From the NCBI GenBank assembly GCA_018000455.1, contig JAGNJW010000003.1:1-64000 (forward strand): a stretch of DNA of 64,000 bases, given 5' to 3'. Shown here in pieces: positions 36,719 through 39,037 of this stretch (position 1 is the first letter of the stretch; each line of letters begins with the position of its first letter). Under the pieces are notes generated by a model. It saw only the letters and a list, made by a program, of their open reading frames with translations. It was not told the origin of the DNA and made no database searches. Position numbers and translations under genes: made by a program. This DNA is from Acidobacteriota bacterium (GTDB lineage: Bacteria; Acidobacteriota; Vicinamibacteria; Vicinamibacterales; UBA2999).

Positions 36719-37864
36719 TTACTGCTTGCGGTAGGAACTCACCGGCGGCAGCCGCGAACCGGTGCCCGACGGCGGCGCGGCTTCGCCCACGACATTCAAC
36801 GTGATCGAGCCGATGCCGTCGATGGCCGCCGTCATCTTCTCGCCCGGCTTCAGGAAGCGCTCGGCACCGCGGTAGGCCTGGCCCATGCCGGTGCCGCCCG
36901 AGGTGCCGTTGTTGACGACGTCGCCCGGGTAGAGGGTGATGATCGACGACCCGTACTCGATGAGCTCGTAGATCGAGTGGATCATGTCGGAGGCGCCGGC
37001 CTCCTGCATGACCTTGCCGTCGACCGTCAGCGTCTGGCGCAGGCGCTTCATGGGATCGCCGTAGAACTCCTTCGGCACGATCCACGGGCCCATCGGTGCA
37101 AAGGTGTCGTGACCCTTGCCGACCAGCCAGTCGGAGCCGGGCCGCGAGTCGGGCGGCCGTCCGCCGCGGTCTGAGACGTCCACCGTGACCATGTAGCCGA
37201 AGATGTGCTCGGCGGCCTTGTCGGCCGACACGTACTTCGCCGTGCGGCCCATCACGATGCCGAGCTCCACCTCCCAGTCCACGCGGTCGCGGCCGTAGGG
37301 GATGATCACGTTGTCGCCGTCGCCGACCACGGCGCCGCGCGTCGGCTTGATGAAGAGATACGGCACACCGCGCTTGGCGCGCCGCTCGGCTTCGGCCTTC
37401 TTCTGTTCCTCGGCCGTGCCCGTCTCACCCACATGGGTATAGAAATTCACGGCGGCGTTCAGCATCTTGCCGGGCATGAGCGGCGCCAGGATGTCCACGC
37501 TCTTGACGTCGTGGACGTAGGCCGGCCGCTGCGCGCCGGTGAGGCGATTGCTGCGCACGAGGTGGTTGACGATCTCGTAGAGCCGCGTCTTCATCCCGTA
37601 CTCGTAGCGGCCGATGAGCGCCACCATGTCGGCCGGCACCGGCACGGCCGGATACGCCGGGTCGCGCTGCAGGGCGCGATTGGCAGCCACCAGATCAACG
37701 ACCAGCGTATCGCGCAGCACGATGCCGATGCGCGGCTCGCCTGCGATCTCGAACGTGCCGAGCTTGAACGGCTCGGCGCTGCTGATGGAAGGGTCACCCT
37801 GCGCCGCTGTCAGCGCCGGACTGCTCAGGACGACGAGCGCCGTCAGGAACGCGATCGATTTCAT
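36719..37864 (-). CDS. Exported fumarylacetoacetate hydrolase-family protein
   Basis: ATG 37864 follows an ideal AAGGAGG. The 381-residue product has a signal peptide (about 1-21) and an FAH catalytic domain: LNAAVNFYTHVGE, KPTRGAVVGDGD, metal ligands in DWEVELGIVMG, then SDWLVGKGHDTFAPMGPWIV and GDVVNNGTSGGTGMG. FAH enzymes cleave C-C bonds or isomerise ring-cleavage products in the cytosol. An exported member implies periplasmic aromatic or ketoacid processing. Its promoter faces one of the two TGTCT arrays and it is divergent from a TonB-receptor gene start, so the two may be co-regulated. Confidence 0.9.
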   Translation of the reverse strand: MKSIAFLTALVVLSSPALTAAQGDPSISSAEPFKLGTFEIAGEPRIGIVLRDTLVVDLVAANRALQRDPAYPAVPVPADMVALIGRYEYGMKTRLYEIVNHLVRSNRLTGAQRPAYVHDVKSVDILAPLMPGKMLNAAVNFYTHVGETGTAEEQKKAEAERRAKRGVPYLFIKPTRGAVVGDGDNVIIPYGRDRVDWEVELGIVMGRTAKYVSADKAAEHIFGYMVTVDVSDRGGRPPDSRPGSDWLVGKGHDTFAPMGPWIVPKEFYGDPMKRLRQTLTVDGKVMQEAGASDMIHSIYELIEYGSSIITLYPGDVVNNGTSGGTGMGQAYRGAERFLKPGEKMTAAIDGIGSITLNVVGEAAPPSGTGSRLPPVSSYRKQ

Positions 37865-37928
37865 GGAATTCCTCCTTGATTGCCGTTCATTGTGTATCAG
37901 CCATCCTGGGCCGCCGCCGGTAAAACGA

Positions 37929-38021
37929 TGTCTCGGAAATGTCTGCGACTTGTCTCGATCGCCGATCGCCGATCGCCCGGCCTTCGTCCAGCAGAGACAA
38001 CTTGCAGACAAACCCTAGACA
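37929..38021. promoter_or_regulatory. Two inverted triplets of TGTCT with 11-bp phasing in a divergent promoter
   Basis: TGTCT occurs at 37929, 37940 and 37951, and its complement AGACA at 37995, 38006 and 38017. Each triplet is spaced at exactly 11 bp. Direct repeats on one helical face are the binding pattern of OmpR/PhoB-family regulators. The AGACA array ends 4 bases before a perfect -35 (TTGACA, 38026). The TGTCT array lies the same distance from TTTACC on the other strand, facing the FAH-family gene. Confidence 0.7.
37956..37976. repeat. Three tandem copies of CGATCGC
   Basis: A perfect 7-bp unit is repeated three times directly after the TGTCT array. It fills most of the spacer between the two arrays. 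It could be chance in GC-rich DNA or a spacing element. Confidence 0.6.
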
Positions 38022-38025
38022 TGGT

Positions 38026-38031
38026 TTGACA
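38026..38031 (+). promoter_or_regulatory. Consensus -35 of the TonB-receptor promoter
   Basis: TTGACA lies immediately after the AGACA triplet. A weak -10 (ACATTA or CATTAC, 38049-38055) is at 17-18 bp. This is the usual position for an activator touching sigma at the -35. Confidence 0.5.
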
Positions 38032-38094
38032 TCGCGCGCCCCGTCGAAACATTACGCTCCCAGTCATCGACGGTCTCCGAAAGGAAGGATTTCC

Positions 38095-38691
38095 ATGATG
38101 CCAGCCGCACGGCTCCTGTCGCTCATTCTTGGCGTGTTCCTGGCGTCGTCCCCGGCGTTGGCGCAGCAGCGCGGATCGATTGCCGGAAAGGTGCTCGATC
38201 CCGACGGCCTCGCCCTGCCAGGCGCCACGGTCGTCATCACCAATGCGGGCACCGGCTTCACGCGGGAAGCCGTCACGGCGGAGACCGGTGCCTACTCCAT
38301 CCCGAACCTGGAGCCCGGCACCTACGACGTGGTCGTGACGATGGCCGGATTCGGCAACGCCACCCGCACGGGGATGGTGCTGGCGCCTGGTTCCACCGTC
38401 ACGCTCGAACTGAAACTCACGGTCGCCGGCGTGCAAGAGAACCTCGTCGTCACTGGAGAGGCGCCCCTCGTCGAGCGCACGAGCAACCAGATCGGCGGCA
38501 CCCTGTCGCGGCGTGAGATCGAGGAGGTGCCGTCGAACTTCCGCAACTTCACCGGCCTCACCCAGCTCATTCCGGGGATGACTCAAAACCCGGCGACCTC
38601 CACCTTCGAAGGCGGCCAGGTCGTGGCCAGCGGATCGCCGTCGCAGCAGAACGTCTACCTGATTGACGGGATGTATAACAACGACGACCCG
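38095..38691 (+). pseudogene. TonB-dependent receptor, 5' part only (truncated)
   Basis: ATG 38095 follows GGAAGGA. About 199 residues remain: a signal peptide (LLSLILGVFLASSPALAQ), a carboxypeptidase-regulatory-like domain (GSIAGKVLDPDGLALPGATVV ... GAYSIPNLEPGTYDVVV, about 28-110) and the start of the plug (GEAPLVERTSNQIGGTLSRR, QNVYLIDGMYNNDDP). The rest of the plug and the whole barrel, normally 700 or more residues, are missing. At about 38691 the sequence changes to a response-regulator tail in another frame. No TonB receptor could form. The promoter and start look fully functional, so truncation is recent or is an assembly artefact. Confidence 0.85.
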
Positions 38692-38692
38692 C

Positions 38693-39037
38693 GGACTCGA
38701 CCCCGGCGCCGACGACTTCGTGAGCAAGCCGTTCAGCGGCGAGTTCACGCTCGGCGACGTGGTCGTGAAGCCGCGCCAGCGCCTGGTGCTCAGGAAGGGC
38801 CACCGCGTGCCCCTCTCCGCCCGCGAGTTCGAGCTCCTGCGCTATCTCTTCGCGCATCGCAACGAAGTCGTCAGCCGCGAGCAGTTGCTCCGCGACGTCT
38901 GGGGCTACAGCCAGCTCTCGGTCACGCGCACGGTCGACAACTACGTCGCCAAGCTGCGCACGCACATCGAGCCGCGGCCGCACGAGCCGCGCTACTTCAT
39001 CACGGTGCACGGCTCCGGCTACCAGCTCCTGGCGTGA
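38693..39037 (+). pseudogene. OmpR-family response regulator, 3' part only (truncated)
   Basis: In a frame different from the receptor fragment, the DNA encodes the end of a receiver domain (GLDPGADDFVSKPFS, with the conserved Lys). A complete winged-helix output domain of the OmpR/PhoB type follows (FTLGDVVVKPRQRLVLRKG, LSAREFELLRYLFAHRNEVVSREQLLRDVWG, TRTVDNYVAKLRTHIE). The first 80 or so receiver residues are absent. About 25 residues that normally link KPFS to the output domain are also gone, in frame. It has no start of its own. The intact gene would be a good candidate for a regulator binding phased repeats like those upstream. Confidence 0.82.

Follow-up and report, generated by a model that had tools for sequence, protein, structure and literature searches.

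The 64,000-nucleotide stretch of an Acidobacteriota genome analyzed here (the window; contig JAGNJW010000003.1, assembly GCA_018000455.1) contains a divergent promoter with a hydrolase gene on its left and a receptor gene on its right. The leftward gene (36719–37864, minus strand) encodes a 381-aa FAH-family protein (FAA_hydrolase, PF01557; Pfam E 4.8e-52) with an apparent signal peptide; it has orthologs in relatives. On the right, the N-terminal ~200 aa of a truncated CarboxypepD_reg/TonB-dependent receptor (38095–38689, plus strand; Pfam CarboxypepD_reg 5e-22) are followed by a C-terminal fragment (Trans_reg_C) of an OmpR/PhoB-family response regulator (RR; 38689–39037, plus strand), identified by sequence comparison.

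Between these genes, TGTCT occurs three times in 11-bp steps (starts at 37929, 37940, and 37951) and AGACA three times in the same steps (starts at 37995, 38006, and 38017), exactly where an earlier reading of this DNA (hereafter the original prediction) had placed them. The genome-wide search proposed with that prediction, performed as mismatch searches for the array pattern, yielded two exact matches in the 5.19-Mb genome, both at this divergent promoter: the TGTCT-N6 triplet at 37929–37955 and the inverted one at 37995–38021. Base composition predicts 0.0009 exact arrays in 5.19 Mb and about 1e-5 per window. With up to two mismatches, these two arrays were the only matches in the window (0.05 expected from shuffles), and the whole genome added one weak, two-mismatch match. 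Additionally, no other 11-bp-phased triplet of any 5-mer, whatever its sequence, was found within the window.

Read outward, each array has the form 5'-AGACAA-N5-AGACA-N6-AGACATsGTTTkAC, with a TA-rich -10 about 21 nt further on; a ribosome-binding site and the start codon come next. The FAH-side operator consists of three AGACA half-sites with an 11-bp period (37929–37955, minus strand; coding strand AGACAAGTCGCAGACATTTCCGAGACA), followed by TTTTAC at the position of the fourth element (37920–37925, minus strand; TTTkAC in the family logo) and a probable -10 region (37890–37899, minus strand; coding TGATACACAA, TGCTACAAA in relatives); it is kept in the FAH promoters of genomes G005, G011, G012, and G041. 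The TonB-side operator likewise has three AGACA half-sites with an 11-bp period (37995–38021, plus strand) and is kept at TonB promoters of, for example, G001, G005, G007, G011, G012, and G041. Its probable -10, TACGCT, lies at 38053–38058 (plus strand); relatives have TAAGCT, TAGGCT, TACGCT, or TACCCT. Because the FAH-side and TonB-side copies are near-identical, the double array amounts to a single promoter module present in two adjacent copies, each facing outward.

In a logo of 22 sites, the GACA boxes at 0, 11, and 22 were nearly invariant, T-T-T-k-A-C occupied positions 29–34, and a weak T-A was seen at 57–58; across the 22 GACA-type promoters and the CACA variant of G050, boxes stand at 0, 11, 22, and 32. 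The TTGACA at 38026–38031 (plus strand; logo positions 29–34) does lie four bases past the second array, as originally described, but its label as a consensus -35 probably does not hold. As a canonical sigma70 -35 it was rejected, since the 21 nt to TACGCT (conserved TAnnnT) are too far. It is more probably a fourth half-site that coincides with part of the -35 region, because its GACA lies 10 bp past box 3 and G050, in which every box has become CACA, switches the same position to CACA.

Conservation and linkage to a response regulator

Such promoters numbered 22 in Vicinamibacterales (Acidobacteriota), in addition to the one CACA variant. The divergent arrangement was found in four genomes of two genera (G000, which is the window genome; G005; G011; and G012) with nearly invariant boxes, while the DNA between the arrays measures 39, 16, 31, and 31 nt, respectively, and hardly aligns. 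In G041, the FAH and TonB genes stand in tandem with an array before each, and single-array promoters occur in G001, G007, G034, G035, G039, G090, and G091. AGACA lies on the coding strand in all of these single-array promoters, which fixes the orientation of the half-site. The pair as one palindromic or symmetric element was therefore rejected, and the "symmetric double array" of the original prediction resolves into two separate outward operators. Inter-box spacers differ and are less conserved than the boxes, and the position of the arrays upstream of start codons is fixed.

Within the order, 14 of the 162 genomes carried the extended motif GACA-N7-GACA-N7-GACA-N3-TTTNAC (up to one mismatch), compared with 2 for a reversed control pattern; the match in G072, which has one mismatch and is in a genome with no RR, is apparently due to chance. 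These counts contradict the possibility that such arrays are equally common in coding DNA. The other concern, that the repeats might not be conserved in relatives, is contradicted by their retention at orthologous and other promoters. A contig search by FAH homology (80 loci) found no arrays beyond the genomes already in the set. Three public MAG records with close homologues of this acidobacterial locus (L116, L120, and L187) are titled as Cyanobacteria or Acidimicrobiia, apparently by misassignment.

In relatives, the operon runs in the order array, TonB receptor, NHL-repeat protein(s), dCache-like histidine kinase, and RR. An ortholog of this RR (E<=1e-85) was identified in 16 of the 162 genomes, and none was found outside the order among 396 genomes sampled phylum-wide. 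Thirteen genomes have a convincing array: 12 with an RR ortholog, and the window genome, which has the C-terminal part of the RR only. Four RR genomes gave no strict motif match. The contigs of two (G003 and G013) stop short of the promoter; upstream of TonB, the array of G093 is degenerate, and that of G050 consists of CACA boxes in the same 11/11/10 phase. Counting these last two, all 14 RR genomes with the promoter region assembled have an array. The overlap of motif and RR (12 genomes) gives p ~1e-13 in Fisher's exact test, uncorrected for shared ancestry, and this co-occurrence is confounded by common descent because the array sits inside the same gene cluster as the RR. The distance from array to RR gene is 18–82 bp in six genomes and at most 15.2 kb in seven others in which both share one contig. 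FAH orthologs in genomes without the RR have no arrays. For example, G010, of the same genus as the window genome, lacks both the RR and the array; the -10 (TGCTACAAAATG) of its FAH gene persists, and the DNA upstream has been replaced by an ABC-transporter gene.

Some of these operons have further features. Those of G001:C77 (L076) and G007:C139 (L077) are enlarged to ~15 kb between array and regulator, and hold two TonB receptors, a TPR plus substrate-binding-like protein, and several beta-propeller proteins. In G005:C12 (L062:1061-5783), an apparent CRISPR array with Cas-like ORFs adjoins the two-component operon, and its repeat shows in translation as 'GPLISQRNN'/'FNGAADFSAEQ'.

The apparently truncated operon of the window genome

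The rightward gene was originally called a TonB receptor start, which is literally true, but the gene is truncated: receptor homology ends at 38689 and the frame runs out of phase into the RR fragment. Past this point the sequence aligns with the RR, starting near codon 94, and the TonB and RR pieces are out of frame with each other. A deletion of ~8 kb (about 7.8 kb relative to G012) thus joins the start of the TonB gene directly to the RR tail in the assembly. A second lesion of ~66 nt lies inside the RR and removes receiver alpha5/linker. The closest intact RR in the window genome is a 52% paralog (G000:C6:226952-227620). It belongs to a sister two-component system (L231, G000:C6:225289-227620) whose kinase sensor is 26% and whose RR is 52% identical.

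The TonB/RR fusion might be an assembly artefact, with the real genome carrying an intact operon and regulator. The assembly is a draft in 54 contigs, and the RR is kept in three of the four other genomes of the genus. Against this, the missing TonB body, kinase sensor, and close NHL copies left no trace elsewhere in an assembly scored 100% complete, and the two separate lesions together with the independent loss in G010, of the same genus, favour real decay. We consider an artefact possible but somewhat doubtful; it would bear on the deletion alone and does not conflict with the arrays being operators of the linked RR. The operators are intact, and their own regulator is broken if the deletion is real, or else was lost in assembly. 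With a real deletion, the arrays would be orphaned operators whose conservation reflects either a recent loss or use by another RR, for which the sister RR, with nearly the same recognition helix, is the first candidate.

Candidate regulator, proposed mechanism, and predicted regulon

The linked RR has a complete receiver (Response_reg) and a Trans_reg_C winged helix-turn-helix domain (Pfam). Its best NCBIfam model is PhoB (TIGR02154), at 216.1 bits and below the cut-off of 296.2, and its top matches among named models and solved structures are PhoB, MtrA, and RegX3. The kinase (L061:4229-5902) combines HisKA/HATPase_c with a periplasmic domain that has no Pfam match. Compared with PDB structures, an AF2 model of this sensor (pLDDT 82) is dCache-like (best E 1e-7), with modest TM-scores of 0.3–0.5. 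The matches include the pyruvate-bound KinD sensor, a resemblance that can be taken as a hint of the fold, not as a ligand assignment.

The recognition helix of the RR reads TRT(V/I)DN(Y/F)V, and its N is kept in every array-linked RR except that of G050 (TRTVDTF). This N-to-T change is paired with the switch from GACA to CACA in G050 alone among array-linked RRs; as one event, the pairing is suggestive of a link between helix and half-site. The residue aligns with Ser216 of M. tuberculosis PhoP. Ser216 sits in the major groove next to the switched base pair, but it contacts the neighbouring base and not the switched base itself, a point against this link.

Taken together, the two triplets are very probably two copies of one operator for the PhoB/OmpR-family RR encoded next door. 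The original prediction of phased direct repeats for an OmpR/PhoB-type regulator receives strong support from comparative genomics, as the motif is conserved, co-occurs with, and is linked to one such RR gene. In the mechanism that we propose, the RR, once phosphorylated, would occupy the AGACA half-sites in their 11-bp phase cooperatively, as dimers arranged in tandem and head-to-tail, on boxes at 0, 11, and 22 and on a degenerate fourth GACA at 32 that overlaps the -35 region. Acting as an activator rather than a repressor, the bound RR would recruit RNA polymerase to promoters without a properly spaced -35. One copy would drive leftward transcription of the exported FAH-type hydrolase, and the other, in relatives, the rightward operon of TonB receptor, NHL beta-propellers, dCache-like kinase, and RR, so that uptake and breakdown of one substrate would be autoregulated. 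In the window genome, this operon would have collapsed by deletion to the TonB-start/RR-tail remnant. Coordinated control of the exported FAH enzyme and the TonB receptor, as originally suggested, is likewise strongly supported by comparative genomics, but present-day control should not be assumed at this locus, where both the TonB and regulator genes are broken.

A different regulator might instead bind the arrays, such as the sister OmpR-family RR (G000:C6:226952-227620), with the linked RR as a passenger. The sister RR has nearly the same recognition helix (TRTIDNFVAKLR vs TRTVDNYVAKLR), is the closest intact RR in the window genome, and is encoded beside a kinase with a 26% similar sensor. 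It nevertheless occurs in many genomes without any array, no phased triplet was found near its own genes, and the arrays appear and vanish together with the linked RR, which makes this reading very unlikely. Cross-talk from the sister RR in the window genome is possible; a takeover, in which both operators survived the loss of their own regulator and today answer to the sister two-component system, is unlikely. There is a negligible chance that the arrays are functionless, arising by accident or as a low-complexity 11-bp satellite. True 11-bp repeats of the ACACAGATTAG type do fit a loose pattern in G003, G005, and G008, but in the arrays the spacers vary and the boxes are nearly invariant across genera, at a fixed position upstream of start codons and with a shared TTTkAC and -10. 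Satellite-like tandem repeats of 11 bp (ACACAGATTAG / AGACACCGATT) were noted at L035, L038, L048, L049, L055, L057, L058, and L060 in these three genomes, and need to be excluded from any motif scan.

The array-linked genes encode TonB/CarboxypepD_reg receptors, exported FAH-family hydrolases, and NHL proteins, and in some genomes also an FAH paralog (G027) and a CstA transporter (G091 and G093). A dCache-like sensor kinase is tied to FAH-type hydrolases, secreted beta-propellers, and uptake through TonB receptors, and in G091 and G093 to the pyruvate-type transporter CstA, a gene set suggestive of one shared carbon substrate. Pyruvate is often a product of FAH-family enzymes and is carried by CstA relatives; for this reason, a beta-diketo/acylpyruvate-like compound or a sugar acid would be a reasonable guess for the substrate.

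The results define a two-component regulon, with operator, RR, kinase, and targets, by sequence alone in uncultured Vicinamibacterales, in which regulators are hardly characterised. They also offer a sharply testable operator, a natural half-site variant (G050), and an apparent natural regulator-loss mutant (the window genome). If the sister RR does read the arrays, regulatory rewiring would have been caught mid-course, and the order would offer a natural series in which the system is intact, altered (the switch from GACA to CACA together with the helix change), decayed, or lost.

Comparison with known systems

No description of this motif or regulon was found in the open-access literature. 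The regulon is apparently undescribed, and its manner of operation would be like that of known tandem-repeat operators of the PhoB or M. tuberculosis PhoP type.

In the pho box of E. coli PhoB, as generally known, TGTCA repeats lie on the coding strand with an 11-bp period and about 10 bp from the -10. The present system shares the RR family, 11-bp phased repeats, and sites at or overlapping the -35. In contrast, TGTCT/AGACA has the reverse polarity with respect to the promoter, the -10 is further away (~25 nt from where box 4 starts), the RR scores below the PhoB cut-off, and no phosphate genes are linked. With half-sites on the opposite strand and a more distant -10, the activation geometry cannot simply be that of PhoB. 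B. subtilis PhoP uses four TTAACA-like tandem half-sites, read as two dimers; four phased half-sites are thus common to both systems, whereas half-site sequence and regulon differ.

The original prediction named no obvious counterpart, but M. tuberculosis PhoP binds TCACAGC-N4-TCACAGC direct repeats of 11-bp period as a tandem dimer, and more tightly with three or four motifs in a row (PMC4832192). It is a direct precedent for arrays of three to four boxes. Both systems have an OmpR/PhoB-family RR and 11-bp direct repeats, and tandem head-to-tail binding is predicted here. The (T)CACA core of the PhoP half-site resembles AGACA, and especially the TCACA of G050. The PhoP motif TCACAGC has a strict 4-bp spacer; the period is the same here, with the core AGACAA, or TCACAA in G050. 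Unlike in M. tuberculosis, three 11-bp boxes are followed, 10 bp further on, by a fourth box within the -35 region, the core is GACA instead of CACA, and the linked genes are of the TonB, NHL, and FAH types in another phylum.
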